Source of the DNA: Daphnia carinata | Lineage: Eukaryota > Arthropoda > Branchiopoda > Diplostraca > Daphniidae | Direction of reading: 5' to 3' | Length of the DNA: 64,000 nucleotides | NCBI RefSeq assembly: GCF_022539665.2 | Contig: NW_026712518.1 | Location: 35,703 to 99,702, forward strand | Translations under genes and position numbers: made by a program | The notes under the pieces: generated by a model | What the model was told of the DNA's origin: nothing | Databases searched by the model: none | What the model saw: the letters and a program-made list of their open reading frames with translations, nothing else | Shown here: piece after piece, positions 4,200 through 57,033 of the stretch | Numbering within the stretch: the first letter of the stretch is position 1 | Layout: each line of letters begins with the position of its first letter

Positions 4200-6730
4200 A
4201 GTTGATCAGTAGAGCGGATTAGTAGGCCTAAAACTGTACCACCACAAGGCTCTGGTGGCCGCTCTGACGCAACCATCTGATCCCGGATAGATTTGGACTC
4301 TATGGCCGATTCTCGAATACCAGGACCGATGCCTTACTTTTTTTCAAGATCAATATCTCTCATCTCAAGGTTCCGACGTTGATTTTTCCATTTTCCCGCG
4401 TGGCGAAAAATTGCACATAGACGGCTTCTAGAGGTGTTAAAATAGGTTTCACGTACGATACAAATATCCATAGCGCTCTTGTGGTTACGTGTCGTCGTAG
4501 AATCCGGCACCTGCATAGGCGGTCGGTGCACGATTTAGGAAGGCGTTTGGAGTGAAAGGGTTTCATAGAGCAAAGTTCAAAGTGCATCCTGGCTAGGTAG
4601 ACGAAAAGCTCCTTTCTCTCTTTCCAGGGCCTCCCACACTAATGAAATCTGTCCCGCTATCCGAATGAAGAACCTCCGGGATACGATACGTGTTGATGAA
4701 TTTGCGTAGAGACAGGAGAAAGTTCTGAGGAGAGAGCGACAGTACTAGCTACACGAATACTGCTCAGGTTACTAGACATGTATAGAGTACGATCCATCTT
4801 TTGGGTAATCTGTTACCACATTGATTGCTTTCTAACGGAACAGCATGAATGGTGCTCTGGTCGCATCGGAACTCCGGTAGATCAGCCATCAGTTGTTCGA
4901 ATAATCGGGCTCGATTACGTTTACAGATGGAGCAGTCCCAATGGATTTTCTACGCCAACTCTCTTCCGCTTGTTACCCAATAATGTTTGCGTGTTATCCG
5001 TAAGATGAAAATCTCCCCACAAAATTGAGTTGCACATGAAACGCACGAGCAATTTTCTCTTCGAACGGATGTTTTCCAATCAAGAAAATCGGATACTACT
5101 GGTCGTCGGGCACACGTTCGTGCGAATCGTCCACCTAGTCTGAGCAACCTGTCGTCGCCCTGTGTCGGTAACAGGGCCAGCAGAGACGAGCTAGAATGTA
5201 GGATTTATTTTTCCTTATGCGTCGCAATTCCTCGGAGAACACCTCGTTCTGGCATTGTTTAAGAAGATAAAGGAAGGCGGTGTCTAGTTGGTACAGCTAG
5301 GGAAGGTCCTCGTAAGTAATTTCGACTTGGGTTCAATGCCTTTGGCAGGTTGCGTTATGATTATTCTGCGCGCGAGCCGTTTTTCCTCATCTACCTTCTT
5401 CCAGAGAAGGCCAACCGGCTATTCTTGCCCAGACTGTAAAAAAATTTCGGTTCTTTCAGCCAGGACGCTGGGAAGATGATCCCTCTCTGGTGGAACAAAC
5501 CCTTTCGCCGAATTCAGGGCTCCCGGAACCAAACGTCATTCGTCGGGTTGGGTGATAGTTTTGAGTTTTCCCATACGGTTCCTCGGGAAAACTTGATAAT
5601 AGGCCGCCGTCGCTCGGGGCAAATTTCTGGACGGTGCTACTGTCGGTCCCGAATTTTCGAGAGAATATCCTCCCAGTTGGGAGTGACGATCCAACAGGTT
5701 TTGCGAGATGAGCGCCCAGCAAGGCCGCGTTCAATTCTAGTTCCGGAACCGAGAGGCCTTTTTTTTTTAGCTAACTTGTTAGCCGCTTTGACTTATAGTA
5801 CCGTTACTCTCCACTCGCAATTTTCAGCGGTAATAATTTCGGATGTAGACTACTGCTGGGTAGGCTTATTCTGAAACATCACAGAAGAGTTGTATGTCTT
5901 AAGAGGTGAGATACCTTTGGAAAGAGACATTGAGGGGTTGTTTGGTCACTCAATAATTTGAGAGCGCTAAACCACTGTTCCCACTATATCCCATCTTCAC
6001 CTATTACTTCGTCAATCCATTTTAATCCCTGGACGCTGAGTTCCATCAGGTTAATTTTGGCCTTTACTATCAATAGAGAGGCCGCACCAAAGGAGTAATG
6101 GACACTGGCCACCAAACTAATGAGACTTACGCGGATAAAGCAGGTGTCGGAATAGCTAGCCATTGAATCCAAGGGAATCCGACCGGGGTGTTCCAGAATA
6201 CTCCGAGAACTTTTTCATCGGAATTTGGAACTAGGGAATGGGTGGGTGCTGAGAAAGGCAGTATAGTTTCTTCCCCATCACGAATTCACGAATCCATCCC
6301 TGCAGTTCGAGGTCGGTGACGAGCAGGTGATTGTAAATTGTAATGGCTTCTTTCATTGCCTCAGTGATGCCGGGGCGAAATTAAGATAGTCGTCCAGATA
6401 TGTGTTGTATCGGACAGCTGTGGTGAACATTTTGTTTGCACCCGTGTGTTCCATAATCTTTCGGATTGTATGAATGGCGACGAAAGGTGAGCGGCTCGCC
6501 CCAAACGGTAGACGATCCATCCGGAAAACTTGCACCTCGGTTTTCCTTCCTTGACTCCACAAAAAGCATAAGTTGTTAGCTTCTTCACTGCTCAGCAGAA
6601 CCTGCTAAACGTGGCCTCTATATCTGCCGCCCAAACAATTTTGTGCAATCGGAAGCAAGTGACAGCCCAGCAGGTGCATATCCTTGATTAACGGTTTTAT
6701 ACATGGCGATGAGATCATCAACGGATGTGC
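4200..6730 (-). pseudogene. BEL/Pao retrotransposon pol, decayed (RT, RNase H, integrase)
   Basis: On the minus strand the BEL/Pao domains follow in order. RT lies at about 6720-6300 (KIVWAADIEATF with the first catalytic Asp; RMDRLPFGASRSPFVAI; TYLDDYL with the catalytic Asp pair). Next comes the post-RT domain at 6172-5984 (SLISLVASV, KINLMELSVQGLKWIDE). The RNase H-like part at about 5770-5460 includes LELNAALLGAHLAKPV and DSSTV. The integrase zinc-binding region is at 5147-4950 (LRLGGRFART, RITRKHYWVTSGR). The integrase core at about 4930-4620 includes PKRWIVLYTCLVT and LHSDSGTDFI, which contains a catalytic Asp. The C-terminal tail reaches about 4200. Every junction needs a frame change and several stops interrupt it, so no polyprotein can be made. 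Gag and protease were not found. Confidence 0.8.
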
Positions 6731-7417
6731 TACTGATGGCTCAGTTGCTGCGGATGGTTGTCCAGGTGTCTTGGGTGTTCGTTACGCTATTGATGATATT
6801 ACGCCAATTACGTACTAGAGGCTATGATTTCTCTTGTGCCCTCTCGATATTCTTGCAATAATCAAGACCCAGTCACGTCTGACGCAACTGGGGGATTATA
6901 ACACACACACAATACTGACAACGGTCAGGTTAATTTCATAATTTAACATTCTGGTCAGCATTTGGTGCGTGGTGCATAATTAGGTTTGTTAGGATCCGTC
7001 AGCCAGTCACGTCGGCTGCACGGATATGAAAAGAACAATGGTAGAGAGTTAAGAAGGATAGGGGTGTGAGGATACTTACATGGGGGTCATGGCTCTAGCG
7101 GAGATGTTGCGACGCAGCGTCTGATGAACGGAGGACGGCGTCGGGAAGAGTGAGAGCAGCCTCTCGGCCAGACACTTGTAGCGGTAGATTAAAGAACACG
7201 GTGGATGGGTGTTGGGTCACAGTGTATTCACTCTCACAGTCAAGATTACACGACACTTGCACAAGGTATCTAATACACTCTAACACCAGGCAAGCGACAC
7301 ACTCGAACGTGGCTAAAACGCTGCTACACTACTATACGACTACACGAACGGCAGGGTGGAAAGAGACTAAAAAAAGGCACAGCTCAGGCGTGGGTCTTAT
7401 ACCACGCTTTGGCTTGG
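6731..7417. other. Unresolved stretch between BEL pol and glycoprotein relic
   Basis: No gene is supported. A CA-repeat (cacacacac) lies at about 6901-6909. This interval should contain the BEL 5' part, an LTR, or the 3' end of the minus-strand Gypsy element, but I could not find a paired LTR copy. The block ggtggaaagagactaaa near 7353-7369 has a partial match near 2530. Confidence 0.35.
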
Positions 7418-8464: not shown

Positions 8465-9151
8465 TCACAGGCCTAACATTTCTTCCCACTTCGAGAATCC
8501 TTGGTCCATGTACTTCCGTAACATTTCTACGACCGTTTTGTTGAATCTCTCCGTGAGGCCGTTAGTCTGGGGGTGGTAGGCGGTTGTTTTCAGATGCTTG
8601 ATTTGTAATTTGTTACACAACGACGAGAATAGTTCGGAGGTGAAGTTTGACCCGCGGTCGGTGATAATCTCTCTTGGGGGGCCGTGATATAAAATGATTT
8701 TGTCCATCAGGGCTTTACTCGTCGTCCGGGCTGTCTGGTCTGGTAGAGGGATGACTTCCACCCATTTTGTGAAATAGTCGGTGATGACGAGGATGTGGTT
8801 GTTCCCTTGTATAGAGTGAAGCTGGATGGGCCCTGGGAAATCCATTCCCAGTACTTCGAATGGTCTCGACGCAAGGTCTAGCGGGTTCAGAAAGGCTCGT
8901 AAACTGGATCGTCGTTGGAGGGTGCAGGATGCACAGGCCAGACAATACTCTTTGACGTCGGAAAGCATTGTCGGCCAGTAATACTTATCCCGCAGCCGTA
9001 GGACGGTTCTTTGGTAGACTAAGTGGCCGGAGATTGGGGAGTCGTGGTACTCTTGTAGCAGAGGTTTTCTCAAGCTTAAGGGGACTACCACTTGTTGTTG
9101 GGCGAAGGGTCGCCTCTTTTTGGATGTTGGTTCGTTCCGGCGGAACAGCAC
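8465..9151 (-). pseudogene. Gypsy integrase (truncated)
   Basis: The minus-strand frame encodes the HHCC zinc-binding region (YHDSPISGH, then CLACASC) and an rve catalytic core with all three acidic residues: VLGMDFPGPIQL, IITDRGSNFTSEL and NGLTERFNKTV. The core is therefore unbroken. The frame ends at a stop (KWEEMLGL) where the family normally continues with the substrate-conserved AYN and GPF/Y module, so the C-terminal about 100 residues are missing or out of frame. The N-terminal side joins the tether/linker region by overlapping frames at 9085-9151. Confidence 0.85.
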
Positions 9152-9951
9152 GCCGCTGGAGATCGAGTATAGGTATCTTTCACCCAGATCTGAGTGTTGT
9201 TTTCTTCACTGAGGGCCCCGTTTTCTAGGTAGTTCTTGTTGTCGTTGCAGAGAGCGTCCTTTTGTTGCTCGATCAGCATGGCATCTTCTGTTTTCGGGAA
9301 GGTTTGAGCCGCGTTGACGGGGATCCGTGATAAGAAGTCAGCGTTCTCGTGTACTCTACCAGGGCGATACTTGATGGAGTACTTGAGGTTAGCCAACATT
9401 ATGGCCCACCTTCCAAGCCGGCCGGTTTCATCTTTGAAAGTTTGTAACCATTGTAATGGTCGGTGGTCGCTGATGATGACAAAGGGCTCATCTTGAAGAT
9501 AGTGGCGGAAGCATTTTATCCCAAAATTACTGCCGCAGCTTCCTTTTCGATGGTTGAGTAGTTCACTTCGGTTTTGTTCAGGTGCCGACTTGCAAAAGCG
9601 ATCGGCTGATCCTTCCCTTCATATAATTGGGACAGGACGGCACCTATCCGTAGTCGCTGGCGTCGGTGTATATTAGGAACTCCTTCGTGAAATCTGGGTA
9701 AGCCAGGATTGGCTCCGACGTCAGACTATTCTTGAGGAACTCGAAAGCCTTCTCTTCTTCGGTGCCCCACATTATCTTGTCTTGCGGTCTTGCTTTTGTC
9801 TGAGATAGTAGTGGATGGGCAATAGTGGAGAATCCTTCGATGAACCGGCGATAATAGGAGGCCAGCCCCAAAAAAGACTGCAACTCCTTGACGGTTTGGG
9901 GTCTACGGTAGGTAGCTAGTGCTTCTACTTTAGCTGGGTCTGGCGCTACCC
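9085..9951 (-). pseudogene. Gypsy RNase H and linker, frameshifted
   Basis: From about 9951 downward the minus strand reads the RT-RNase H connection (VKELQSFLGLASYYRRFIEG) and then FLIYTDASDYG with the first RNase H Asp. After a frame change at about 9645 it reads FASRHLNKTEVNYSTIEKE with the catalytic Glu, then VIISDHRPLQWL with another catalytic Asp. The linker KYRPGRVHENADFLSRIP follows in the frame at 9399-9085. The catalytic acidic residues are present; only the frame is broken. Confidence 0.8.
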
Positions 9952-10034
9952 TATAATTATTTTAACAAGAATTTTTCCTAGTTAGGTTTCATTTTTATTA
10001 TTTGAGAATCTTCCGCTGAAATGACGTGGCCCAA
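9952..10034. other. Short AT-rich interruption between RT and RNase H
   Basis: The RT frame ends at the stop at 10035 just after KLSKCKFLA, and RNase H linker coding resumes at about 9951. The intervening AT-rich stretch does not look like Gypsy coding sequence and is probably a small insertion or a decayed patch. Confidence 0.4.
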
Positions 10035-10680
10035 TTATTGCACTGACCTCGCCAAGAATTTGCACTTTGAAAGTTTTACTCTGATGTTGGCTTTCTCCAG
10101 TAGTGCGAAAACCTTGCCTAAGTTCTCGATGTGTTCTGCGTGGGTTTTCGAAAACACGATGATGTCGTCTAGATACACAAGGCAGGTCTTTCCGATTTCT
10201 TCCTGCAGGACGAAGTTCATGAGCCTCTGGAAGGTCCCGGGGGCGTTAATGAGGCCGAATGCAAGGCGGTTCCATTCATACAGGTTGTTCTCCACGATGA
10301 AGGCGGTCTTCTCTTTTGAAGCTTCCTCCATCTCTATCTGCCAGTAGCAGGAGGCTATATCCAGGGTGGAAAAGCATTTCTGGCCGTGTAACAGGTCTAG
10401 CACGTCGTCGATTCTTGGTAAGGGGAATGAGTCTTTCTTTGTAACCGAGTTCAGCTTCCGGTAGTCTATACATAGACGGTCGTCTCCTGTCTTCTTTTTC
10501 ACAAGTACAATTGGAGCGACCCAAGGAGAGAGTGACGGTCGTATGTACCATTCTCCAGTAATTCTTCGATGATCTTCTTCGACACTTTCTTTTGACGGGG
10601 TGATGCTCGGTAAGGCCTCTGGCGGATGGGTCCTTGTCCTTGCGTGTCGATCACATGTTTTACTAACCCTGTGTTGCCTC
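10035..10680 (-). pseudogene. Gypsy reverse transcriptase
   Basis: The RT core is nearly intact on the minus strand: SLSPWVAPIVLVKKKTG, RLCIDYRKLNSVT, FSTLDIASCYWQIEM (first catalytic Asp), TAFIVENNLYEW, AFGLINAPGTFQRLMN, and CLVYLDDIIVFS with the catalytic YLDD. The N-terminal entry (GPIRQRPYRASP) is in another frame, with a frame change at about 10,550. An in-frame TGA lies just before GNTGLVKHVI at about 10,680. A stop follows KLSKCKFLA at 10035. Confidence 0.88.
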
Positions 10681-11460
10681 AATCGCTGGTTTTGAATGCG
10701 AAGATGTGCTGGTTTGCCAACAGCAGGTTGCGCAGACTGTTCTTGACGTCTTCGGCGACATCTGGCAGGGCGGCTTCGAGAACGGCGGGGTGAAAGATAG
10801 GGGCTTCGGTGGAGCAAGAAGCCACGTAGGTACCTGGTTTGACAGTCAAGTGCCCTTGAGTGGTGTAGCGAGGCAGGTTGAGGGTGCAGTTGGTCTCGTT
10901 GATTAACACGATGCAAAACAGCCCATTTTTCAACGGTGGCGAGACGAAAGGATCCAATCGGAGTCCGGGGGGTAGACGGGAGTCTTTGACGAAGAAACAG
11001 GCATTGTCGAGAGATAGCTTGAAGTCACTATTCTCGCTCTCCACCACGCATGCAGATGATGGAGGTACTTTAATTCGATGGGACGCCATCATAGTCGGCT
11101 GGTCTTCGGCCTGGAGTTGATCAGACTCCTTCACACGATAGACACGCCTCTCACGACCGTCGATCATGAACTTATGTTTATAAAGAGCGTCTAAACCTAG
11201 AACGCAATCTTCCATAATCCCTTGAACGACGATGAACTCTTGCTGGAAGGGTTCACGGGGCCTCTCGTCCTCGACGAGAAGGTTTATCTGCGGCTTCCCT
11301 GGCAGATCAGGGGCCTGTTGTTTATGTAAAAGAGGTCGTCGGCTACCGCCTTTAAATGTTCCAGATCGATTCCTTGCTTTAGGAGTTTGTTGAAGAGTGT
11401 GCTGCTGACGAGACTCTTTCCTGCTCCGCTATATACTAGTTTCCTCGGAATAAGCAGTCT
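10681..11460 (-). pseudogene. Gypsy aspartic protease and protease-RT linker
   Basis: The protease-like region at about 11,450-11,130 has SGAGKSLVSSTLFNKLL near its start and DCVLGLDALYKHKF near its end, the usual first and last conserved blocks of retroviral-type aspartic proteases. The catalytic triad normally reads D-S/T-G; here it is preceded by LVY and reads Y-S-G, so the active-site Asp appears to be replaced by Tyr. Stops and a frame change interrupt the middle (about 11,280). The linker (10,681-11,215) is open and contains NETNCTLNLPRYTTQG and ends NQHIFAFKTSD before the TGA. Confidence 0.7.
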
Positions 11461-11639
11461 CCTAAGTATAGATTAAGTCTGGGGGTGGCTGGGGTGTCGG
11501 ATACGGCCTTGACGAATTGTTGGGGCTTAGGGTATTCAACGAGGCGCCCAACATGCTGATCGGTGGCGTCTAGTTTTCCGCCCGCGATCGCAGAATACCC
11601 GGTCAAGCTGAGGGCGATTCTGACGTATGCGATGGTGGT

Positions 11640-12892
11640 GGAGGATTTTTGATCGCGTGGCAAAAACTGTGGCGATGCCCAACTTCGTTGCATCGGCTGC
11701 ATTTATCGTTTCGCTGTTGATATTTGGCGAAGCAGTTTTCCGTGTTATGATCTCAGTACGTGTTGTGAAATTCACACGACACCGCTGTTCTTCGAAAAGC
11801 TTCGGGCTGCGAGGCGATGAGGTCTCGTGATTTAGCTGTTTGTTGTTGTCGTGCCAACTGGCGTTGCAAATTGGTCAAACGATGTTGTAGCTCTAGATTC
11901 TGGTCGGAGGCGTTTCTTTCAATTTTTGTGTTCAGCTTATCGAAAGCCTCCAGTACTCCTGCTAGCTCGGAGTTGCGGTTGCTTGGGATGCTAGGTGACG
12001 CATACGCAGCCTGAATGCGCACCCTTGCCTGGCCTTCTTCGATAGCCATCGCTGCCAACTCGGCTTTGTCAATTAGTGTTTCGAAGGAGTGAAACTCCTT
12101 GTGTTTTAGCCGTGGTTGAAGGTCATATTGGAGGCCTGCGATGAATCTGTCCATCATCATTTGTTCCCGTGATGCTGCAGTGGCAGCGTCTAGGGCACCT
12201 TCCATAGGACAGGCTTTGTAAAACGCCTTCCGTATACGGTTAGCGTAACGTCGCATATTCTCTTCGGGTTCTCGTCTCATGTTGTGAAATTCTACGCTCC
12301 TTTGCGACCTTGTCTCGGTCGAGAGGAAGAGTTTGAGAGGCCTTTCTTTGACTGCTGCGTAATCCTGAGAGCGAATGGGGTTGTCCAGTTTGAAATTGTC
12401 AAATTCTTCGGCGGCTTCTCCGTAGAGTTTGGACCGCATGAGGCGGAGTTTCCTCGCCTCTTCAAAATTGCCCAAGTCGAGGGTGGCCTCGAGGTGAGCC
12501 ACCCAATCGTCGAAACGACTGGATCTTTGTCTGTCGCAAAAGATGGCTACCGAGCTGAACGCCTGCATGGCCTGCTCTTGCTAGGCTAACCTAATCTTGT
12601 CTTCGATGGTTATGCTGAGCGTGATTGACGACTGGGGTGGCTCTGGTTCGGTACGTACGTCGAGGGTTCTTGAACACCTCTCCAGTGCGGGTGGGATGGC
12701 CCGTCCGTCGCCTATTGGGCGTTCAGTGGAGTTAACGTTACGATACCCTGGGGAAGGTACGTTCGTGGGGGTAGTGCGTCCTTCAGTAGGGGTTTCTTCT
12801 CCGACGCGGTCTTCGGGGATGTCAGGCTGTTGGGTGGGCGCGGACGGCTGTGGGTGTGGAGTCTTGGGTCGGGCTCCTAGGCGTTCCCACAC
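11640..12892 (-). pseudogene. Gypsy gag with one in-frame TAG
   Basis: A capsid-like helical region spans 12,568-11,753 (RFDDWVAHLEATLDLG, FKLDNPIRSQDYAAVKER, AFYKACPMEGALDAAT, DRFIAGLQYDLQP). It is followed by a Gln/Arg-rich coiled segment and, after a frame change near 11,755, a zinc knuckle CSRCNEVGHRHSFCH at about 11,690-11,640. The Pro-rich N-terminal part (12,892-12,581) is in the same frame as the capsid part, separated only by a TAG at 12,581-12,583 in the context IRLA-stop-QEQAM. Coding similarity continues upstream of 12,892, where no ATG is present in frame, so the true start is further 5'. Confidence 0.78.
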
Positions 12893-22373: not shown

Positions 22374-22381
22374 TAAAAAAC
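22374..22381. repeat. 8-bp target-site duplication, left copy
   Basis: TAAAAAAC immediately left of the fold-back element. The matching copy is at 29,140-29,147. In the second tandem copy the right-hand match at 35,784 has one additional A. Confidence 0.8.
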
Positions 22382-22387
22382 GATTGG

Positions 22388-22500
22388 CGGAGAAAAAGGC
22401 CCAGACGAAAAAGGCCCAGACGAAAAAGGCCCGCGAAAAAGGCCCAGACGAAAAAGACCCATACAAAAAAGGCCCACTTTATTCCAAATTTTAAAATGGG
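22388..22500. repeat. Left subterminal GAAAAAGGCCCAGAC array
   Basis: Five to six copies of GAAAAAGGCCC separated by AGAC, GC or ATAC. An inverted GGGCCTTTTTCTCC follows at about 22,497-22,511, giving a local hairpin. The same array, inverted, closes the right end at about 29,010-29,135. Confidence 0.8.
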
Positions 22501-23574
22501 CCTTTTTCTCCATTAAACTGGGTCTTTTTCTCCGCTTAATTTCCATGTTCCTAAATCTTTATTGAGTTTCCAAAAAGTATTTCCCACCTCCTATTCCGTG
22601 GAAGTTGGAATATATAAAGGTTGCTGAAACCGTGACCTTCTATAAGGTTTGCCCATATGAAACAATGTTAGCGTACATACGCTAGTTAATCTTTGATTAT
22701 TTATTATGTAGCTATCGGATTTTGGATTATGTTAGTATTTATCTATTGCTAATATCCCGTTAAATAAAGTTCATTTTTCACAATTTTTGTTTATTGAACT
22801 ACTTTAGCTTCTTTAAATATAATATAAGAATTATAAGTTTTCCGCACTTAGCCTTGTTCTGTCCACCCTCTTTGATCATTCCTCCCAACCCCCAGTCCAT
22901 TTCCCTTATCACTTCCCTTTGTCGATGCTTATGCCATAGGTAAAGACCACTGATTCGTTGTGAATACGGAAACTGAATAAGTTCCGCGGGGCTTTTGTGG
23001 TTGCTGGGAACAAAGATATGTACCACGAAGACTAGTTTATTATTATTAACATTTGATAAGTAATGTTTATAGGAATAATATTACAAACTTAAACTATCAT
23101 CTGAGGCAACAAGGACTATTGTAATTCAAGATTCCAATACCATTTATTCCTTATACATTTTCAATTCTTTTAACAATTTCAAAGAGCCCAATAAATATAT
23201 TAAAATCAAAACCTACTGCTATAAATGATTTTGCTCGTTCTTCGTGTCCTGTTTTCACCTTTTGCACATTTTCAAGCAGCTATTGATTACCTTATTACAC
23301 ATTACATACTACATTGAGATATAAGGAACCTTTACACTTTGCGTTAACAAAGCTACTAATAAGGCCAAATCAATTTTCTACCATGACGGACTTTTTTTTA
23401 AATGGGAGTCTGTTATTAGTGAAGACACTAAACCTTTTTAAATGAATCTAAGATTTTTTTTTCTTCAAATTTTCCACGATCATGGAAGGCATGCCAGTGT
23501 ATTTTTCTAAAAAACTATCACGCATAGCTGCACATAAAAGAACACGAGTTTAGCTCATCCATGAGTCAGTTTCA

Positions 23575-24880
23575 GTCTTTCATACGACAAATTTGCCTCT
23601 TTTCTTTAGTTTATTCACTTTATGTTCTTTCTTTTCAGTTTTCTTTTTCTACATGCTGGCTTTTCTCTTTTTCTGTTGTTATTCTTTTCTCTTTTCCTTT
23701 TCTTCGATTCGTTCGGCGCAATTTATGTGACTTTCTGATTTGATCTCGTTCATTAATTGATTTGGCAAGCAATTCCACATAGTCTTTTACCTATTGCAAT
23801 ACAGAAAGGTTAAAAGTTTTGAAGATCTTACAAATATTTTTGTCAAATTGGAAGTTTACCTGAAAACCTTCAGCTATTTGCAGAGCACCATTTCATGCCT
23901 GTTTCTCTTCAATGCTTCTTGCATTCTCAACTTCAGCTTGGCCTACTAAGATTTTCATCTTGGGTTTAAATTTTATTTTCTTTCATTTTAATCGTTGCCA
24001 CTTTGGATCTAAAGTGGTCGTTTCCAGAATGGGTGGGGAATTAGAAAGTTCTCCAAAATCAAATTTGCTGGAAACTAGACAGCCTTCACTGTTAAAAATT
24101 GTTGTTGGCAGTGTACTTGCTAGTCTTCCGTTTAAGTTTGATTTTCGTTGTCTTATCAGACAATTACAGCTTTTTCCCTGAAAATCAATGGAATAAACTG
24201 GCCGGTCTTCCTTAAATGTAAATGTTAAAACGTACCTGTAAAGTGTGAGGTGTTCATTCGGATTATGTTCTTTCTTTTCAGTTTTCTTTTTCTTAATGTT
24301 GGGTTTTTTCGTTTTCTGTTGTTATTCCTTTCTCTTTTCCTATTCTTCAATGCGTTCAGCCAACTTCTTTTTACTATCTGATTTGATTTCATCTTGTTTC
24401 TTAATAGATTTAGCAAGTAATTCCACATTGTTTTTTTACCTATTGCAATACAGAAAGGTTAAAATTATTTAAGATCTTACAAATATGTTTGTCAAATTGA
24501 AAGTTTACCTGAAATACTTCGGCTATTTGCAGGGCACCTTTTCATGCCCGTTTCTCTTCAATACTTCTCGCATTCTCAACTTCAGCTTGGCCATCCAAGA
24601 TTTTAACTTTGGCTTTGAGTTTTTTTTTTGTTGCCACTTTTGAATCTAAAGTGGTCTTGTTCAGAATGGGTGAGGGATTAGATAGTTCTCCTAAATCAAA
24701 TTTGCTGAATACTAGGCAGCCTTCACTGTTGAAAATTGGTGTTGGCGGTGTACTTGTTTGTCTTGGTTCAGGAATACCTGTTTTGACAAACTCTGTTTGC
24801 CTTTTCCCTGAAAACAGATGGAATAAGCTGGCCCGTCTTCCTTAAACTTAAAGATTAACACATACCTGTTAAGTGTGAGG
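23575..24880 (-). pseudogene. Captured Lys/Glu-rich coding module, two tandem copies (left arm)
   Basis: On the minus strand two successive, diverged modules (about 24,870-24,240 and 24,185-23,575) have an exon-intron look. One exon reads TPPTPIFNSEGCLVFSKFDL, then LSNPSPILNKTTLDSKVAT, then KAKVKILDGQAEVENARSIE and ends LQIAEVFQ at a gtaaac donor. After a short intron with a tattgcaatag acceptor the next exon reads VKNNVELLAKSIKKQDEIKS and continues Lys/Glu-rich. Stops interrupt both copies. The protein would be a charged alpha-helical (coiled-coil-like) segment. I do not recognise it; a stathmin-like or spindle-protein origin is only a guess. An inverted third copy lies at 27,010-27,710. Confidence 0.45.
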
Positions 24881-25269
24881 TGTTAGCTGCTAGACATTCT
24901 TCCAATTCAACACCAACCTTATTGCTATTGAGATCTTCAACTGTAGATACACTTTCAGTTGAAATGTTGGTCAATAAGCTAGAAATGACAAAATCTTCAG
25001 GAGAGAGTTACTTTTTAAGAGCGACGATGTCAATGGACCCTCGCGTTTTATAAGGCTCTTGATTTTTTGGGTCCTCATTTCCTACAAATTTTGTTTAGAC
25101 GACACTTTCAAGTACTTGTTTTCTCTTTTTCCATTTACAAAAACTGCCTCTCATCTTATAACCTTTAAACTTTATTATTAATTATTTGATCTCTCAACAT
25201 TATCACTGATCACTCCATAGATCAAACTATACGAAACAAGTCTATTGTTATTTTCTTTAGGGAACGGCA

Positions 25270-26012
25270 TTTCAAGCCAAATCCAGCTTCAGGACGCCTC
25301 CACTTGAGGGCAGTATAAGCAGATGGAAACCATGAACAATAAAAAAGTAGCTAAATTTTGTTGAATTTGTAATATAAGAATTACATTTTTTTTTAATTCA
25401 ATCGGTAATCTTAAGAATTTATTTTACTACGTTTATTTTTTGTACTACCCATCATACGATTTATTGGATACTTACTCTGCTTATACTGCCCTCAGGTGGA
25501 GGCGTCCTGAAGGTAGATTTGTCTTGAAAATGTCGTTCTCTACAGCAATAACAATAGGCTAGGATCGTCGACATTTTCAAGCCAAATCTAGCTTCAGGAC
25601 GCCTCCACCTGAAGGCAGTATAAGCAGATGGAAACCATGAGCAATAACAAAGTAACTAAATTGTGTTGAATTTGTATAAGATATAAGAATATTATTATAT
25701 TTGTATAATATAAGAATTAATTTTCTTAAAATTTCAATAGACAATCATAAGAATTTATTTTACTACATTTGTTTTTTGTACTACCTTTCAAGCCAAATCT
25801 TGCTTGAGGACGCCTCCACCTTAGGGCAGTCTAAGCAGAGAAAGTATACAAAAAATCGTATGAACCGTAGTTCAAAAAACAAACGTGGTAAAATAAACCC
25901 CTAAGATTGCCTATTGAAATTAAAAAAAAATTAAGTCTTATATTACAAATTCAATAAAATTTAGTTACTTTGTTATTGTTCATGGCCTCCATCTATCTGT
26001 GTAGTACGAAAA
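25270..26012. repeat. Cluster of three related MITE-like units
   Basis: Unit 1 (about 25,275-25,545) has inverted ends TTTCAAGCCAAATCCAGC and GTAGATTTGTCTTGAAAA, each with GGACGCCTCCAC. Unit 2 (about 25,572-25,786) repeats the left half in the same orientation. Unit 3 (about 25,787-26,012) has a left end but an interior that is the reverse complement of unit 1. They are non-coding and occupy the centre of the fold-back element. Confidence 0.65.
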
Positions 26013-26133
26013 TTCCATTGATAGCTTTGCTGTTATTGTCTGCTAGCATCGAAGCTAATACCGAAAAATTCAGTGAAACAAGGGAAAAGGCCGTTATTGC
26101 AACAAAATGTTTGGTGCAATAGACTCTACGAAA

Positions 26134-26862
26134 AACTCCTTTTATCATAAAGGACGGCTAGCTGCTTTAAAGAGGTAAGTTGAGTAAGCTCTTCTTCAGA
26201 GACTTACGTGCAGCTTGCAATCAAATTGTTGATGTGGAATATATTATGCATTCTCATTCACATTCAATGTTTATTTTGTTTCCTAGGAGAACACAAAAAA
26301 AAAATTGGCGTCAAGGATGTTTTGTTATACGGGATTATTGATTATTACTAGGATCCAAGCATAAACCAAAGCCAAACTTAGGACTTGCTTAACCACTCAA
26401 CAATTTTACTGTGAAAGGATGCAAAATTATGAAAGCGGTATAACATTTTAGTAACCAATATGTCTTAGAATATCTTTACTTTGTTTTTGCATGATGCCAG
26501 GGGATCACCCAAACCATGCACCTTTCAGATTGGAGGTCTTAAATGGATGAATGTAATTGAAACGAGTTTTCATATTGAGCCTGAAAAAAAGGTATGTGAA
26601 GGGTCAAAACCTAATTTTAAAAATTTTCATACATTGTGGTTTTCTTGTGCATCATATAACAAAAACTGAGAGCATAAATTTGTTATTGGATTCTAGGGAA
26701 GAATGGATGACTGCTGTTGATTATGCTGCTGAACAGATTCATACAGATCCTGATTGCAATGATTTGGATATGCCAGCCGTTTCTGAAAAAACACCAGGAA
26801 CCATGCTTCCAATCCTTAAGAAATGGAAAAACAGCTAACAGCTAAGCTCTCGCTTTTCACAG
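26134..26862 (+). pseudogene. Akt/PKB pleckstrin-homology exons captured by the transposon, copy A
   Basis: Four exon-like blocks with intron boundaries retained. Block i, about 26,134-26,174, ends IIKDG...RG at a gtaagt donor. Block ii, 26,287-26,437, reads GEH-KNWRQGCFVIRDY, then LLLGSKHKPKPNLGLA, then PLNNFTVKGCKIMKA. Block iii, 26,501-26,591, reads SPKPCTFQIGGLKWMNVIET followed by SFHIEPEKK and a gtatgtg donor. Block iv, 26,697-26,862, reads REEWMTAVDYAAEQIHTD. This order is characteristic of the Akt PH domain, which binds PIP3 at the plasma membrane. In-frame stops in blocks i and ii and a frame offset between ii and iii make it a pseudogene. Retained introns mean capture at the DNA level, not via mRNA. 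The kinase domain is absent. Confidence 0.82.
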
Positions 26863-27009
26863 GTATGTGTTACTCTTTACATTTAAGTAAGACCTGCCAG
26901 TTTATTCCATTGATTTTCAGGAAAAAAGCTGGATTTATCTGATAAGAAAACAAAAATCAAACTAAACAGAAGTTAAATGAAATGAAGAAAAAATTATAAA
27001 GCAAAAAGA

Positions 27010-27710
27010 AGAAGAGGAGTTCCTGAATTGCCAAACTTGCATGAGCAACCAAGGTAGCATCTGTGTCACCAACCTCTGTTCTTTCAGAGTTTGTCTAAAC
27101 AGAAATTTCTGAACCAAGACTAGCAAGTACATTGCCAACACCAATTTTCAACAGTGAAGGCTGCCCAGTTTTCAGCAAATTTGATTTTGGAGAACTATTT
27201 AATCCCTCACCCATTCTGAAAAAGACCACTTTAGATCCATAATTGGCAACGATTAAAATGAAAAAAAAAATACTTAAACAAAAAGTGAAAATCTTGGTAG
27301 GCCAAGCTGAAGGTGAGAATCCAGAAGCATGGAAGAAAAACAGGCTTGCAATGGTGCTCTACACATAGCTGAAGGTTTTCAGGTAAACTATCAATTTGAC
27401 AATCATATTTGTAAAGTGTTCAAAACTTCTAACGTTTCTGTATTGCAATAGGTAGAAGACTGTGGAATTCCTTGGCAAATAAATAAAGAAACGAGGTAAA
27501 ATCAAATCAGAAAATTAAATAAATTGGGCTGATCGCAACGAAGAAAAGGAAAAGAGAAAGGAATGACAACAGAAAAAGAGAAAGGAATGACAACAGTAAA
27601 AGAGAAAGGAATGACAACAGAAAAAGAGAAAAGCCAACATTAAGAAAAAGAAACTGAAAAAAAAGAACATACAGTGATTAAACCAAATCAAAAAAAGGAA
27701 AATTTATCGT
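27010..27710 (+). pseudogene. Captured Lys/Glu-rich module, right-arm copy
   Basis: Inverted counterpart of the left-arm modules. It reads FSKFDFGELFNPSPILKKTT, then KVKILVGQAEGENPEAWKK, and ends AEGFQ at a gtaaac donor. The intron ends in tattgcaatag, and the next exon begins near 27,451. A local expansion of a 24-bp unit (AGAGAAAGGAATGACAACAG plus AAAA) occurs three to four times at about 27,556-27,635. Stops are present. Confidence 0.45.
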
Positions 27711-29009
27711 ATGAAATAATGATACCGACTCATAGATGAGCTAAACTCGTGTTCTTTCATGTGCAAGCCATGGCGCGACAGTCTTTTAGAAAAATACACT
27801 GGCATGCCTTTCATGATTTTGGAAAATTTGAAGAAAAAAATCTTAGATTCATTTTTAATTGTTTAGTGTCTTCACTATAGCAGACTCATAAAAACAGTCT
27901 TTCATGGTAGAAAATAATTAAAATTGATTTGTACTTGTTAATAGCTTTGTCAACTTCAGGTGCAAGGCTTCCTTATTGTTCATTGTAGTATGTGATGTGA
28001 ATTAGGTAAACAATAGCAGCTGGAATATGTGCATAAGGGGAAAACAAGACACGAAGAACGTAAAAAATTATTTATCATTGCTTGAAAACGCGAGTTCTCA
28101 CCAGAGACGTATATGGTTCTCTCGGACTAAAGGTGAGGTTACTCTTTAACAAAAGACTGCTCTTTACCAAAAGCCATTACTATTTAAGTTTGACTCATAG
28201 ACGTTCTTATGCAAATTAAATATTCCAGTTACGGTAGAACTATTTATAGTTTTGCTGAAAAGCGCTCCAAGACAACAGTTAGCAGTAAAAGGCCTGGCAT
28301 ATTTATAGCAGTAGGTTATGATTTTAATATATTTATTGGGCTCTTTGTAATCGTGAAAAAAATTGAAAATGTGATAAGGAAATAAATGGTATGAAAATCA
28401 ATATTGAATTACAATATTCTTTCTTTTTGTCCTTATCGCAAACGATAGTTTAAGCTTGTAGTGTTCTTCCTCAAAAAATTATTTATCAAATGTTAATAAT
28501 AATGAACTAGTCTTCGTATTAACATATCTTTGTTCCCAGCAACCACAAAAGCCCCGCGGAACTCATTCAGTTTCCGTATTCATAACAAATCAGTGGTCTT
28601 AACCTATGGAATAAGTATCGACAAAGAGAAGTTATAATGAAGATGGATTTAGAGTTGGGGGGAATGATCAAAGAGGGTGGACAGAACAAGGCTAAGTGTG
28701 GAAAACTTATAATTCTTATATTATATTTAAAGAAGCTAAAGTAGTTCAATAAACAAAAATTGTGAAAAATGAACTTTATTTAACGGGATATTAGCAATAG
28801 ATAAATACTAACATAATCCGAAATCCGATAGCTACATAATAAATAATCAAAGATTAACTAGCGTATATACGCTAACATTGTTTCATATGGGCAAACCTTA
28901 TAGAAGGTCACGGTTTCAGCAACCTTTATATATTCCAACTTCCACGGAATAGGAAGTGGGAAATACTTTTTGGAAACTCAATAAAGATTTAGGAACATGG
29001 AAATTAAGC

Positions 29010-29135
29010 GTAGAAAAAGGCCCACTTTAAAATTTGGAAAAAAGTGGGCCTTTTTTGTATGGGCCTTTTTCGTCTGGGCCTTTTTCGCGGGCCTTTTTCG
29101 TCTGGGCCTTTTTCGTCTGGGCCTTTTTCTCCGAC
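29010..29135. repeat. Right subterminal array of the fold-back element, copy A
   Basis: Inverted counterpart of the left array: repeated GGGCCTTTTTCGTCT. A local hairpin forms between aaaaaggcccacttt and aaagtgggccttttt at about 29,011-29,056. Confidence 0.8.
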
Positions 29136-29139
29136 CTCC

Positions 29140-29147
29140 TAAAAAAC
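29140..29147. repeat. 8-bp target-site duplication, right copy
   Basis: TAAAAAAC directly after the right terminus, matching 22,374-22,381. Confidence 0.8.
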
Positions 29148-29195
29148 ACCCACGATCCGTAAAACAAACCATTTCAAATTAACAATCCAAATTTG

Positions 29196-29490
29196 TTACC
29201 TTGTGAGTGCAGTGGTATGCAGCGGAAGACCTGAGGATTCCTTTGTCATCACAGTTCTAGATTGACGAAGACGTTTGGCTTTGGCAGTTCGACGTCTTTC
29301 AGTTTCAAGAACCGTGGAGGTAGTCGGCGGTGTTGTCTGGCGAACCACAATGTGCGTCAATTCGTTTGCTGATTTTGTTTCGGCTTCTGCTGATGGCGTT
29401 CCACACAATAATAACTGATTTTCTTCTTCAAGATTCTCTACCATATCAGTTGCTGATTCCTCATTAATACCATTTGCACCAAAAGCTGTA
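29196..29490 (-). pseudogene. KDZ accessory-gene exon, duplicated copy
   Basis: Nearly identical to the exon at 35,842-36,136 and duplicated along with the 6.64-kb tandem unit. It sits between the two fold-back copies, and nothing upstream of it here continues the gene, so this copy is stranded. Confidence 0.6.
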
Positions 29491-29506
29491 AGAAAGAAAC
29501 TATTAT

Positions 29507-32500
29507 TGTCCACCCTCTTTGATCATTCCTCCCAACCCCCAGTCCATTTCCCTTATCACTTCCCTTTGTCGATGCTTATGCCATAGGTAAAGACCACTGA
29601 TTCGTTGTGAATACGGAAACTGAATAAGTTCCGCGGGGCTTTTGTGGTTGCTGGGAACAAAGATATGTACCACGAAGACTAGTTTATTATTATTAACATT
29701 TGATAAGTAATGTTTATAGGAATAATATTACAAACTTAAACTATCATCTGAGGCAACAAGGACTATTGTAATTCAAGATTCCAATACCATTTATTCCTTA
29801 TACATTTTCAATTCTTTTAACAATTTCAAAGAGCCCAATAAATATATTAAAATCAAAACCTACTGCTATAAATGATTTTGCTCGTTCTTCGTGTCCTGTT
29901 TTCACCTTTTGCACATTTTCAAGCAGCTATTGATTACCTTATTACACATTACATACTACATTGAGATATAAGGAACCTTTACACTTTGCGTTAACAAAGC
30001 TACTAATAAGGCCAAATCAATTTTCTACCATGACGGACTTTTTTTAAATGGGAGTCTGTTATTAGTGAAGACACTAAACCTTTTTAAATGAATCTAAGAT
30101 TTTTTTTTCTTCAAATTTTCCACGATCATGGAAGGCATGCCAGTGTATTTTTCTAAAAAACTATCACGCATAGCTGCACATAAAAGAACACGAGTTTAGC
30201 TCATCCATGAGTCAGTTTCAGTCTTTCATACGACAAATTTGCCTCTTTTCTTTAGTTTATTCACTTTATGTTCTTTCTTTTCAGTTTTCTTTTTCTACAT
30301 GCTGGCTTTTCTCTTTTTCTGTTGTTATTCTTTTCTCTTTTCCTTTTCTTCGATTCGTTCGGCGCAATTTATGTGACTTTCTGATTTGATCTCGTTCATT
30401 AATTGATTTGGCAAGCAATTCCACATAGTCTTTTACCTATTGCAATACAGAAAGGTTAAAAGTTTTGAAGATCTTACAAATATTTTTGTCAAATTGGAAG
30501 TTTACCTGAAAACCTTCAGCTATTTGCAGAGCACCATTTCATGCCTGTTTCTCTTCAATGCTTCTTGCATTCTCAACTTCAGCTTGGCCTACTAAGATTT
30601 TCATCTTGGGTTTAAATTTTATTTTCTTTCATTTTAATCGTTGCCACTTTGGATCTAAAGTGGTCGTTTCCAGAATGGGTGGGGAATTAGAAAGTTCTCC
30701 AAAATCAAATTTGCTGGAAACTAGACAGCCTTCACTGTTAAAAATTGTTGTTGGCAGTGTACTTGCTAGTCTTCCGTTTAAGTTTGATTTTCGTTGTCTT
30801 ATCAGACAATTACAGCTTTTTCCCTGAAAATCAATGGAATAAACTGGCCGGTCTTCCTTAAATGTAAATGTTAAAACGTACCTGTAAAGTGTGAGGTGTT
30901 CATTCGGATTATGTTCTTTCTTTTCAGTTTTCTTTTTCTTAATGTTGGGTTTTTTCGTTTTCTGTTGTTATTCCTTTCTCTTTTCCTATTCTTCAATGCG
31001 TTCAGCCAACTTCTTTTTACTATCTGATTTGATTTCATCTTGTTTCTTAATAGATTTAGCAAGTAATTCCACATTGTTTTTTTACCTATTGCAATACAGA
31101 AAGGTTAAAATTATTTAAGATCTTACAAATATGTTTGTCAAATTGAAAGTTTACCTGAAATACTTCGGCTATTTGCAGGGCACCTTTTCATGCCCGTTTC
31201 TCTTCAATACTTCTCGCATTCTCAACTTCAGCTTGGCCATCCAAGATTTTAACTTTGGCTTTGAGTTTTTTTTTGTTGCCACTTTTGAATCTAAAGTGGT
31301 CTTGTTCAGAATGGGTGAGGGATTAGATAGTTCTCCTAAATCAAATTTGCTGAATACTAGGCAGCCTTCACTGTTGAAAATTGGTGTTGGCGGTGTACTT
31401 GTTTGTCTTGGTTCAGGAATACCTGTTTTGACAAACTCTGTTTGCCTTTTCCCTGAAAACAGATGGAATAAGCTGGCCCGTCTTCCTTAAACTTAAAGAT
31501 TAACACATACCTGTTAAGTGTGAGGTGTTAGCTGCTAGACATTCTTCCAATTCAACACCAACCTTATTGCTATTGAGATCTTCAACTGTAGATACACTTT
31601 CAGTTGAAATGTTGGTCAATAAGCTAGAAATGACAAAATCTTCAGGAGAGAGTTACTTTTTAAGAGCGACGATGTCAATGGACCCTCGCGTTTTATAAGG
31701 CTCTTGATTTTTTGGGTCCTCATTTCCTACAAATTTTGTTTAGACGACACTTTCAAGTACTTGTTTTCTCTTTTTCCATTTACAAAAACTGCCTCTCATC
31801 TTATAACCTTTAAACTTTATTATTAATTATTTGATCTCTCAACATTATCACTGATCACTCCATAGATCAAACTATACGAAACAAGTCTATTGTTATTTTC
31901 TTTAGGGAACGGCATTTCAAGCCAAATCCAGCTTCAGGACGCCTCCACTTGAGGGCAGTATAAGCAGATGGAAACCATGAACAATAAAAAAGTAGCTAAA
32001 TTTTGTTGAATTTGTAATATAAGAATTACATTTTTTTTTAATTCAATCGGTAATCTTAAGAATTTATTTTACTACGTTTATTTTTTGTACTACCCATCAT
32101 ACGATTTATTGGATACTTACTCTGCTTATACTGCCCTCAGGTGGAGGCGTCCTGAAGGTAGATTTGTCTTGAAAATGTCGTTCTCTACAGCAATAACAAT
32201 AGGCTAGGATCGTCGACATTTTCAAGCCAAATCTAGCTTCAGGACGCCTCCACCTGAAGGCAGTATAAGCAGATGGAAACCATGAGCAATAACAAAGTAA
32301 CTAAATTGTGTTGAATTTGTATAAGATATAAGAATATTATTATATTTGTATAATATAAGAATTAATTTTCTTAAAATTTCAATAGACAATCATAAGAATT
32401 TATTTTACTACATTTGTTTTTTGTACTACCTTTCAAGCCAAATCTTGCTTGAGGACGCCTCCACCTTAGGGCAGTCTAAGCAGAGAAAGTATACAAAAAA

Positions 32501-35500
32501 TCGTATGAACCGTAGTTCAAAAAACAAACGTGGTAAAATAAACCCCTAAGATTGCCTATTGAAATTAAAAAAAAATTAAGTCTTATATTACAAATTCAAT
32601 AAAATTTAGTTACTTTGTTATTGTTCATGGCCTCCATCTATCTGTGTAGTACGAAAATTCCATTGATAGCTTTGCTGTTATTGTCTGCTAGCATCGAAGC
32701 TAATACCGAAAAAATTCAGTGAAACAAGGGAAAAGGCCGTTATTGCAACAAAATGTTTGGTGCAATAGACTCTACGAAAAACTCCTTTTATCATAAAGGA
32801 CGGCTAGCTGCTTTAAAGAGGTAAGTTGAGTAAGCTCTTCTTCAGAGACTTACGTGCAGCTTGCAATCAAATTGTTGATGTGGAATATATTATGCATTCT
32901 CATTCACATTCAATGTTTATTTTGTTTCCTAGGAGAACACAAAAAAAATTGGCGTCAAGGATGTTTTGTTATACGGGATTATTGATTATTACTAGGATCC
33001 AAGCATAAACCAAAGCCAAACTTAGGACTTGCTTAACCACTCAACAATTTTACTGTGAAAGGATGCAAAATTATGAAAGCGGTATAACATTTTAGTAACC
33101 AATATGTCTTAGAATATCTTTACTTTGTTTTTGCATGATGCCAGGGGATCACCCAAACCATGCACCTTTCAGATTGGAGGTCTTAAATGGATGAATGTAA
33201 TTGAAACGAGTTTTCATATTGAGCCTGAATAAAATGTATGTGAAGGGTCAAAACCTAATTTTAAAAATTTTCATACATTGTGGTTTTCTTGTGCATCATA
33301 TAACAAAAACTGAGAGCATAAATTTGTTATTGGATTCTAGGGAAGAATGGATGACTGCTGTTGATTATGCTGCTGAACAGATTCATACAGATCCTGATTG
33401 CAATGATTTGGATATGCCAGCCGTTTCTGAAAAAACACCAGGAACCATGCTTCCAATCCTTAAGAAATGGAAAAACAGCTAACAGCTAAGCTCTCGCTTT
33501 TCACAGGTATGTGTTACTCTTTACATTTAAGTAAGACCTGCCAGTTTATTCCATTGATTTTCAGGAAAAAAGCTGGATTTATCTGATAAGAAAACAAAAA
33601 TCAAACTAAACAGAAGTTAAATGAAATGAAGAAAAAATTATAAAGCAAAAAGAAGAAGAGGAGTTCCTGAATTGCCAAACTTGCATGAGCAACCAAGGTA
33701 GCATCTGTGTCACCAACCTCTGTTCTTTCAGAGTTTGTCTAAACAGAAATTTCTGAACCAAGACTAGCAAGTACATTGCCAACACCAATTTTCAACAGTG
33801 AAGGCTGCCCAGTTTTCAGCAAATTTGATTTTGGAGAACTATTTAATCCCTCACCCATTCTGAAAAAGACCACTTTAGATCCATAATTGGCAACGATTAA
33901 AATGAAAAAAAAAATACTTAAACAAAAAGTGAAAATCTTGGTAGGCCAAGCTGAAGGTGAGAATCCAGAAGCATGGAAGAAAAACAGGCTTGCAATGGTG
34001 CTCTACACATAGCTGAAGGTTTTCAGGTAAACTATCAATTTGACAATCATATTTGTAAAGTGTTCAAAACTTCTAACGTTTCTGTATTGCAATAGGTAGA
34101 AGACTGTGGAATTCCTTGGCAAATAAATAAAGAAACGAGGTAAAATCAAATCAGAAAATTAAATAAATTGGGCTGATCGCAACGAAGAAAAGGAAAAGAG
34201 AAAGGAATGACAACAGAAAAAGAGAAAGGAATGACAACAGTAAAAGAGAAAGGAATGACAACAGAAAAAGAGAAAAGCCAACATTAAGAAAAAGAAACTG
34301 AAAAAAAAGAACATACAGTGATTAAACCAAATCAAAAAAAGGAAAATTTATCGTATGAAATAATGATACCGACTCATAGATGAGCTAAACTCGTGTTCTT
34401 TCATGTGCAAGCCATGGCGCGACAGTCTTTTAGAAAAATACACTGGCATGCCTTTCATGATTTTGGAAAATTTGAAGAAAAAAATCTTAGATTCATTTTT
34501 AATTGTTTAGTGTCTTCACTATAGCAGACTCATAAAAACAGTCTTTCATGGTAGAAAATAATTAAAATTGATTTGTACTTGTTAATAGCTTTGTCAACTT
34601 CAGGTGCAAGGCTTCCTTATTGTTCATTGTAGTATGTGATGTGAATTAGGTAAACAATAGCAGCTGGAATATGTGCATAAGGGGAAAACAAGACACGAAG
34701 AACGTAAAAAATTATTTATCATTGCTTGAAAACGCGAGTTCTCACCAGAGACGTATATGGTTCTCTCGGACTAAAGGTGAGGTTACTCTTTAACAAAAGA
34801 CTGCTCTTTACCAAAAGCCATTACTATTTAAGTTTGACTCATAGACGTTCTTATGCAAATTAAATATTCCAGTTACGGTAGAACTATTTATAGTTTTGCT
34901 GAAAAGCGCTCCAAGACAACAGTTAGCAGTAAAAGGCCTGGCATATTTATAGCAGTAGGTTATGATTTTAATATATTTATTGGGCTCTTTGTAATCGTGA
35001 AAAAAATTGAAAATGTGATAAGGAAATAAATGGTATGAAAATCAATATTGAATTACAATATTCTTTCTTTTTGTCCTTATCGCAAACGATAGTTTAAGCT
35101 TGTAGTGTTCTTCCTCAAAAAATTATTTATCAAATGTTAATAATAATGAACTAGTCTTCGTATTAACATATCTTTGTTCCCAGCAACCACAAAAGCCCCG
35201 CGGAACTCATTCAGTTTCCGTATTCATAACAAATCAGTGGTCTTAACCTATGGAATAAGTATCGACAAAGAGAAGTTATAATGAAGATGGATTTAGAGTT
35301 GGGGGGAATGATCAAAGAGGGTGGACAGAACAAGGCTAAGTGTGGAAAACTTATAATTCTTATATTATATTTAAAGAAGCTAAAGTAGTTCAATAAACAA
35401 AAATTGTGAAAAATGAACTTTATTTAACGGGATATTAGCAATAGATAAATACTAACATAATCCGAAATCCGATAGCTACATAATAAATAATCAAAGATTA

Positions 35501-35783
35501 ACTAGCGTATATACGCTAACATTGTTTCATATGGGCAAACCTTATAGAAGGTCACGGTTTCAGCAACCTTTATATATTCCAACTTCCACGGAATAGGAAG
35601 TGGGAAATACTTTTTGGAAACTCAATAAAGATTTAGGAACATGGAAATTAAGCGTAGAAAAAGGCCCACTTTAAAATTTGGAAAAAAGTGGGCCTTTTTT
35701 GTATGGGCCTTTTTCGTCTGGGCCTTTTTCGCGGGCCTTTTTCGTCTGGGCCTTTTTCGTCTGGGCCTTTTTCTCCGACCTCC
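29507..35783. mobile_element. Fold-back element copy B, left terminus missing
   Basis: Lacks the first about 478 bp (left TIR and GAAAAAGGCCC array) because the tandem duplication began inside the element. The right terminus is intact, ending CTCCGACCTCC before taaaaaaac. Confidence 0.8.
32780..33506 (+). pseudogene. Akt/PKB pleckstrin-homology exons, copy B
   Basis: Same four blocks as copy A, offset by about 6,644-6,646. Differences: a shorter A run after GEH in block ii, and the end of block iii changed (ctgaaaaaaaggtatg in A, ctgaataaaatgtatg in B). The change introduces a TAA-containing sequence and weakens the 5' splice site. It is non-functional. Confidence 0.8.
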
Positions 35784-35841
35784 TAAAAAAACACCCACGA
35801 TCCGTAAAACAAACCATTTCAAATTAACAATCCAAATTTGT

Positions 35842-36310
35842 TACCTTGTGAGTGCAGTGGTATGCAGCGGAAGACCTGAGGATTCCTTTGTCATCACAGT
35901 TCTAGATTGACGAAGACGTTTGGCTTTGGCAGTTCGACGTCTTTCAGTTTCAAGAACCGTGGAGGTAGTCGGCGGTGTTGTCTGGCGAACCACAATGTGC
36001 GTCAATTCGTTTGCTGATTTTGTTTCGGCTTCTGCTGATGGCGTTCCACACAATAATAACTGATTTTCTTCTTCAAGATTCTCTACCATATCAGTTGCTG
36101 ATTCCTCATTAATACCATTTGCACCAAAAGCTGTAAGAAAGAAACTATATAGTAACAAAAACTTAATATTGTCACTTTGTTGATAATAATACAAAAATTG
36201 TTATTTCACTTAATATTAAGACCTACCTTGTTCTTGAAGATTGCAATCAATATCATCAGCTGTGCCTCCATACTGAATGTCAAACACATTTGGTGGAACA
36301 GTTTTTACAT
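35842..36310 (-). CDS. KDZ accessory gene, middle exons
   Basis: Exon about 36,136-35,842 follows a tttcttacag acceptor and reads FGANGINEESATDMVENLEE, then VVRQTTPPTTSTVLETERRR and AKRLRQSRTVMTKESSGLPL, ending at a gtaaca donor. The preceding exon (about 36,310-36,222; acceptor tttttatcag, donor gtaggt) reads VPPNVFDIQYGGTADDIDCN. The basic patch RRRTAKAKRLRQ looks like a nuclear-localisation signal. No enzyme or DNA-binding domain is recognised. The gene runs antisense to the transposase and its 3' exons lie beyond the insertion at 21,895-22,373. Confidence 0.5.
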
Positions 36311-56985: not shown

Positions 56986-57033
56986 ACTCCAGCATACTCA
57001 ATCAAGCAAATTTCAAGAACAGTTTCCAGCAAG

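Follow-up and report, generated by a model that had tools for sequence, protein, structure and literature searches.

The window analysed here, a stretch of 64,000 nucleotides from Daphnia carinata (assembly GCF_022539665.2, contig NW_026712518.1, positions 35,703 to 99,702 of the forward strand), contains a fold-back DNA transposon of 6,758 bp (22382–29139) which carries pieces of two host genes, the kinase gene Akt and SURF6, together with introns. The element is one member of a family found at many places in the genome. In the reading that we consider very likely, this fold-back family carries broken, intron-bearing host Akt and SURF6, Akt was probably captured once, from chromosomal DNA, by template switching, and a transposase made elsewhere is predicted to have spread the cargo.

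The extent of the element, to which no strand was assigned, is defined by both termini, the arms and a target-site duplication. It starts at 22382 with GATTGGCGGAGAAAAAGGCCC, the inverted counterpart of which, GGGCCTTTTTCTCCGACCTCC, ends at 29139, and it is flanked by a perfect 8-bp duplication, TAAAAAAC, read at 22374–22381 on the left and at 29140–29147 on the right. A tandem-repeat scan detected an array of a 15-bp unit, GAAAAAGGCCCAGAC, at the left end (22392–22476, plus strand) and an inverted array, also of period 15, at the right end (29045–29129, minus strand). Inverted-repeat comparison paired the outer part of the left arm (22388–23021, plus strand) with that of the right arm (28522–29133, minus strand) over 122 bp at 98% and 509 bp at 95% identity, with shorter blocks deeper inside; further nested inverted repeats occupy the center (25270–25994). 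Thus, the matching inverted ends with inward arrays and the 8-bp duplication reported in an initial annotation of this DNA were both recovered, and its view of a non-autonomous animal element with terminal inverted repeats (TIRs) and a genomic piece of Akt is supported. The element has the features by which fold-back transposons are recognized, that is, long inverted repeats, short tandem repeats near the ends, and no transposase inside. It also has those of a Pack-TIR, namely TIRs with a target-site duplication, donor host genes still present elsewhere, and introns kept in the captured sequence.

The captured Akt piece (26131–26791, plus strand) starts in the end of exon 1 and breaks off within exon 4. 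It aligned to host Akt 4992–5657 at 80.4% identity (538 of 669 columns), unbroken through introns 1–3, and the comparison of introns with the host gene that the initial annotation had proposed therefore came out in its favor. Exon coordinates, all on the plus strand, were read off the sequence guided by this alignment: the 3′ part of exon 1 (26131–26174, aligned to host exon 4969–5035) followed by GT at 26175, exon 2 (26287–26437) with AG before and GT after it and with a frameshift and stops, exon 3 (26503–26591), and the 5′ part of exon 4 (26697–26791), which is joined to SURF6. The GT/AG boundaries claimed earlier hold at five of the six intron ends and fail at the intron-2 acceptor, where GG stands at the homologous place and an AG was seen by eye two bases upstream. 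When joined, the four exon blocks matched the AKT1 PH domain in PDB (E 2.8e-14), in agreement with their earlier assignment; the Pfam PH profile by itself stayed below its cut-off (E 0.051). The right edge had been placed too far out by 71 bp (26134–26862): positions 26792–26862 are SURF6, and the whole block was therefore rejected as Akt. Because the introns are kept in the alignment to host Akt, a processed pseudogene was rejected as well. The Akt frame is broken by stops at host codons 18, 21, 40, and 57 and by indels in exons 2 and 3. Within the retrieved records, the sequence just before the Akt piece (26031–26140) matched family copies and, over 14 bases, one further place, which was taken as chance.

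The host Akt gene lies at C3:9921995 (L019), where eight exons, set by splice sites, yield an unbroken frame of 532 residues, of which the D. pulicaria protein shares 509 and the D. galeata protein 503. Of the at least 41 matches of one genomic search, for which 40 of 53 candidates were scored, 32 were to Akt in elements and 1 to host Akt; the other 8, among them host SURF6, were confined to the SURF6 end of the query. The kinase half gave 19 matches, 1 in the host gene and 18 in elements. The union of both searches (24 and 16 loci) amounts to at least 32 Akt loci in elements, a lower bound for which matches within 12 kb were joined and the tandem pair of the window was counted as one locus. 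DNA was read at 19 of the 32 loci (the window plus 18 loci in 19 stretches of 10 kb), and every Akt copy checked was broken. Four copies (L028, L034, L035, and L037) are near-complete, each aligning to host 4830–6997 in one piece at 82.5–84.3% identity; each comprises 2,168 bp of Akt with all seven introns, beginning 139 bp before the start codon and reaching codon 475 of 532. An intermediate form (L032) covers host 4996–5912 and 6747–6997, and L027 contains a short piece along with host 5728–6997 inverted to it. The Akt piece in the window is a remnant of such a larger captured Akt.

The second captured gene, SURF6, is present in the arms of the window element as three pieces, introns included. 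Two of them lie in the left arm on the minus strand, at 23580–24249 (two matches, 73.8% and 83% identical to host SURF6) and at 24268–24908 (74.6% and 82%), and one lies in the right arm on the plus strand (26791–27714). All three were placed by DNA alignment, the last also by the Pfam profile SURF6 (PF04935), which matched frames joined by eye from several copies with an E value of 5.6e-20. The host gene at C3:8059517 (L043), of which 921 bp were read, is unbroken over two matched exons; it aligned to 26791–27583 at 74.9%, also to 27624–27714, and in inverted orientation to parts of both left-arm pieces. Genome-wide, SURF6 gave 38 matches; 2 of them correspond to the exons of the host gene, which lie on C3 and contain no stops, and the remaining 36 are elsewhere. 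As three copies (L039, L040, and L041) have no Akt match and contain four SURF6 pieces each, two per orientation, SURF6 marks the wider family and Akt a subset of it. In the lineage of short Akt pieces, exon 4 continues into SURF6 without keeping the frame, as judged by eye; an Akt–SURF6 fusion protein was rejected on account of this joint and of the frame being broken upstream. The right-arm SURF6 piece includes a 24-bp tandem array (27544–27631), and none was reported in the left-arm pieces. A D. carinata database protein, LOC130689161 (130 amino acids; P0121), is built from SURF6 repeats resembling those of the fold-back family, with pieces 92–100% identical to L039 (2502–2981), which is a warning to annotators that this gene model was assembled from such repeats.

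The genome searched comprises 108 Mb in 106 contigs. The left-end pattern matched it 81 times with at most two mismatches, 70 times exactly, and the backwards control gave no match. The search for further termini suggested by the initial annotation thus revealed 81 left ends, and copies with and without Akt are both present. When 25 records (the window, the host locus L019, and L020–L042) were scanned for both termini at a distance of 2–12 kb, 12 contained a two-ended copy, and 8 of these (the window, L020, L026, L027, L039, L040, L041, and L042) are flanked by a perfect 8-bp duplication. Since these duplications differ among the four of them that bear Akt (the window, L020, L026, and L027), the Akt cargo has moved. 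L037 belongs to a sister family with the ends GATTGCC/GGCTACC and shows, provided that its ends are placed that way, a perfect 9-bp duplication, CGTAACAAG. This sister fold-back family, with GGAGAAATAGGACC-type ends (L034 and L037), also holds a near-complete Akt piece; the capture therefore probably predates the divergence of the two end types. The window itself contains a small palindrome (approximately 53984–54818; 74.6% self-inverted) with GAAATAGGACT arrays and ends resembling those of the sister family.

The number of captures was addressed by aligning 21 Akt pieces to the host gene, leaving out L024, L038, the broken short piece of L035, and the tandem copy in the window. Codon 21, which is AAA in the host, is TAA in all 19 pieces that cover it (two do not), a count that includes L029 and L033; these two copies have common flanks in inverted order on C10 and look like one insertion that was probably duplicated. 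Because every piece covering codon 21 has the same stop, a single capture of Akt is most likely. Changed residues common to both lineages relative to the host, D. pulicaria, and D. galeata alike were found at 5 of 81 comparable sites, the codon-21 stop among them, while 14 changes are private to the short pieces and 3 to the near-complete ones. Lesions present in every one of the four near-complete copies are an insertion at host 6116, deletions at 5156, 5614, 6095, 6546, and 6980, and stops at codons 348 and 474. Their intron-6 donor reads GA instead of GT, as it does in L027. In the codon alignment, the row of L032 is unreliable past its deletion, which the global alignment had to bridge.

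Several observations nevertheless weigh against a single capture from host Akt followed by spread with the element. Three of the 12 two-ended copies (L022, L029, and L033) have no duplication, little microhomology is visible by eye at the capture junctions, and no family transposase was found when MULE, hAT, Merlin, and P profiles were searched genome-wide and compared with the 81 left ends. A DNA tree of 19 rows placed the host between a group of 4 near-complete and a group of 14 short pieces, and by itself also allows Akt to have been captured twice, once as the near-complete piece (host 4830–6997) and once as the short one (host 4991–5657). The left breakpoints of the two sets differ, and the sets diverge from each other by about 0.15–0.23. 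This history is nonetheless unlikely, given that the codon-21 stop is common to 19 of 19 pieces and is accompanied by four further common amino acid changes. Moreover, the element sequence that precedes the short piece of the window by 80 bases recurs 15–20 bases ahead of the near-complete piece in L034, L037, L028, and L035, and L032, despite being grouped with the short pieces, extends past their right edge to host 5912 and covers 6747–6997 again.

Divergence at the three codon positions is a further point of concern. Between pairs of near-complete copies, four comparisons gave 6.0–7.8% at positions 1+2 and 8.5–9.4% at position 3, and position 3 was slightly more divergent in all six comparisons; the pattern is close to what would be expected without selection, suggesting little constraint on these copies. 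From the host to the root of the near-complete copies, however, distances were 0.059 (0.044–0.073) at positions 1+2, 0.137 (0.109–0.175) in introns, and 0.286 (0.236–0.354) at position 3. The last value is not easily explained by decay since a single capture from host Akt; functional genes probably travelled part of the path between host and cargo. Owing to this excess, the donor may be a related Akt lineage rather than the direct ancestor of host Akt. The divergence between host and element, concentrated as it is at third positions as if two functional genes had separated before the capture, even leaves some room for a donor from another Daphnia lineage, the element having arrived by horizontal transfer or hybridization. 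We regard this as possible but rather improbable, as intron divergence fits simple decay and as, of the 16 sites at which the host differs from both D. pulicaria and D. galeata, 11 show the host state in the near-complete copies (3 show the state of the other two species and 2 another state). The donor was therefore near the host lineage, if not certainly on it. A processed pseudogene, chance similarity, or an assembly error can practically be dismissed. The window does lie on an unplaced contig of 99.7 kb with a 99.88% identical tandem duplication that is possibly artefactual, but the introns are kept, and chromosome-size contigs carry the same cargo at many sites, flanked by separate duplications.

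According to the preferred history of one capture, repair or replication would have slipped from the repetitive arms of the element into Akt, between 139 bp before the start codon and codon 475, by template switching as proposed for Ssk-FB4 in the FoSTeST model. As the junctions show little microhomology, it is this precedent on which template switching rests. The Akt copy would then have lost its coding function, with rearrangement taking place within the repetitive arms, and a near-complete lineage would have parted from a shorter one whose Akt exon 4 runs directly into SURF6. Both lineages would have spread with the element, which is predicted to be moved in trans by a transposase made elsewhere. 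The cargo is most likely passenger DNA that persists without encoding a functional protein.

Duplications of 8 bp are characteristic of the hAT, P, and Merlin superfamilies. The longest stop-to-stop frame in six examined elements amounts to 169 amino acids, and a Pfam scan of ten element frames returned no transposase, only kinase matches for one of them (the Akt cargo) and one weak match below the cut-off. For Merlin (DDE_Tnp_IS1595, PF12762), no genomic match was obtained. The hAT profile (PF05699) matched 46 times and the P profile (PF21788) 19 times; for each profile, two matches follow a left end on its inner side at no more than 15 kb (8.8 and 12.5 kb for hAT, 13.6 and 13.9 kb for P), outside the stretches that were read. 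The nearest of them, a hAT dimerization match at C9:1591050–1591298, is 8.8 kb inward of the left end of the fold-back copy at C9:1582204, near enough for a long copy; it may point to the transposase or simply be a neighbor. Mutator-type duplications are about 9–10 bp long, as given for FB4 in PMC8277862, compared with 8 bp in 8 of the 12 two-ended copies, 9 bp in L037, and none in 3. MULE (PF10551) gave 19 genomic matches, and for 2 of them one of the 81 left ends lies outward at a distance of up to 15 kb. A MULE match in L032 lies beyond recognized element sequence, the far end of this copy not having been found. The MULE inside L038 was rejected as the family transposase because it belongs to a separate element, nested in this copy and bounded by ends and a 9-bp duplication of its own, and the fold-back family was therefore not assigned to Mutator. 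This nested element (approximately 743–4307 of L038; ends GGGTCAGCGTAAAATGCGGACGCGGAC, duplication GAGAACGAC) is inserted in an Akt-bearing copy, and its frames encode a MULE transposase and, by eye, an Ulp1-like protease and a PHD-like finger.

The inverted arrangement of some cargo raises the question of RNA hairpins. In L028, a short and a near-complete Akt piece face each other with 85.4% identity over 658 columns, so a transcript across this copy would form a hairpin of Akt sequence; L027 and L035 also contain Akt in both orientations. Exact 21-mers in common with the Akt coding sequence number 50–101 in the four near-complete copies and 0, 0, 3, and 4 in four short pieces tested. The piece in the window is one of those without any (0 of 641), and silencing of Akt by this copy, as far as such matches can predict it, looks weak. 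That fold-back copies act as natural hairpin RNA genes damping host Akt or SURF6 could be argued from the inverted Akt of L028, the 21-mers of the near-complete copies, and SURF6 in both arms of the window element; with no exact 21-mer in the window copy, only 0, 3, and 4 in the other short pieces, and decay of the pieces under little visible constraint, it is very unlikely. Equally unlikely is the broader proposal that a selfish element, by setting Akt or SURF6 sequence against itself in its palindromic arms, turned these two host growth genes into genome-wide hairpin cassettes, any read-through of which would yield double-stranded RNA against both host genes and thereby a natural, heritable RNA-interference array.

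Plants provide the best-known cases of gene capture by DNA transposons. In animals, Ssk-FB4 of Drosophila melanogaster and Turmoil-1 of Caenorhabditis elegans are true precedents for the Daphnia element. Ssk-FB4 (PMC8277862) is likewise a near-complete gene with introns in a mobile, non-autonomous fold-back element with long TIRs, the transposase of which is not known either. It has 9–10-bp duplications, four copies at three loci, and a young, expressed protein, whereas in the Daphnia element the duplications are mostly 8 bp long, Akt occurs at 32 or more loci, the frames are broken, and another gene has been captured as well. Turmoil-1, according to PMC2572040, also holds two host gene fragments, one with an intron, within inverted repeats, but is a Harbinger element with its own transposase, from a superfamily with usually 3-bp duplications; its fragments are 205 and 131 bp long, and one complete copy plus eight fragments are described. 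The animal Pack-TIRs surveyed in PMC8277862 resemble the Daphnia family in having gene-derived sequence between TIRs and a parental copy elsewhere. Just four multicopy cases are given there for 100 animal reference genomes, in contrast to dozens of Akt loci here, and the word Daphnia does not occur in the main text as available. Tetris of Drosophila virilis is similar in being a non-autonomous fold-back with tandem repeats in its TIRs, 8–10-bp duplications, and no transposase found, but the accessible part of its description (PMC4079207) mentions no captured gene. Literature searches of titles and abstract openings revealed, among the matches listed, nothing on a gene-capturing fold-back in Daphnia. 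For an animal, the family described here is unusual in its copy number, in carrying two genes, and in the palindromic Akt–Akt arms of some copies. Its cargo, which includes an almost entire kinase gene, exists in long, intermediate, and short versions alongside the donors in a single genome; capture, decay, internal inverted duplication, and spread are therefore each testable.

Within the window, a second copy with an Akt piece starting at 32777 (29507–36148, plus strand) was rejected as a separate insertion, as it is a tandem duplication, at 99.88% identity, of 22860–29503 including flanking sequence; on this unplaced contig, it could be a real duplication or an assembly artefact. Next to the insertion, 29196–29500 looks coding on the minus strand and ends at a GT near the element, which may thus sit within an intron of a minus-strand gene. 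Farther away, gypsy-like retroelement frames with reverse transcriptase and integrase were recognized by eye at 8465–12580 (minus strand) and 56239–59670 (plus strand).

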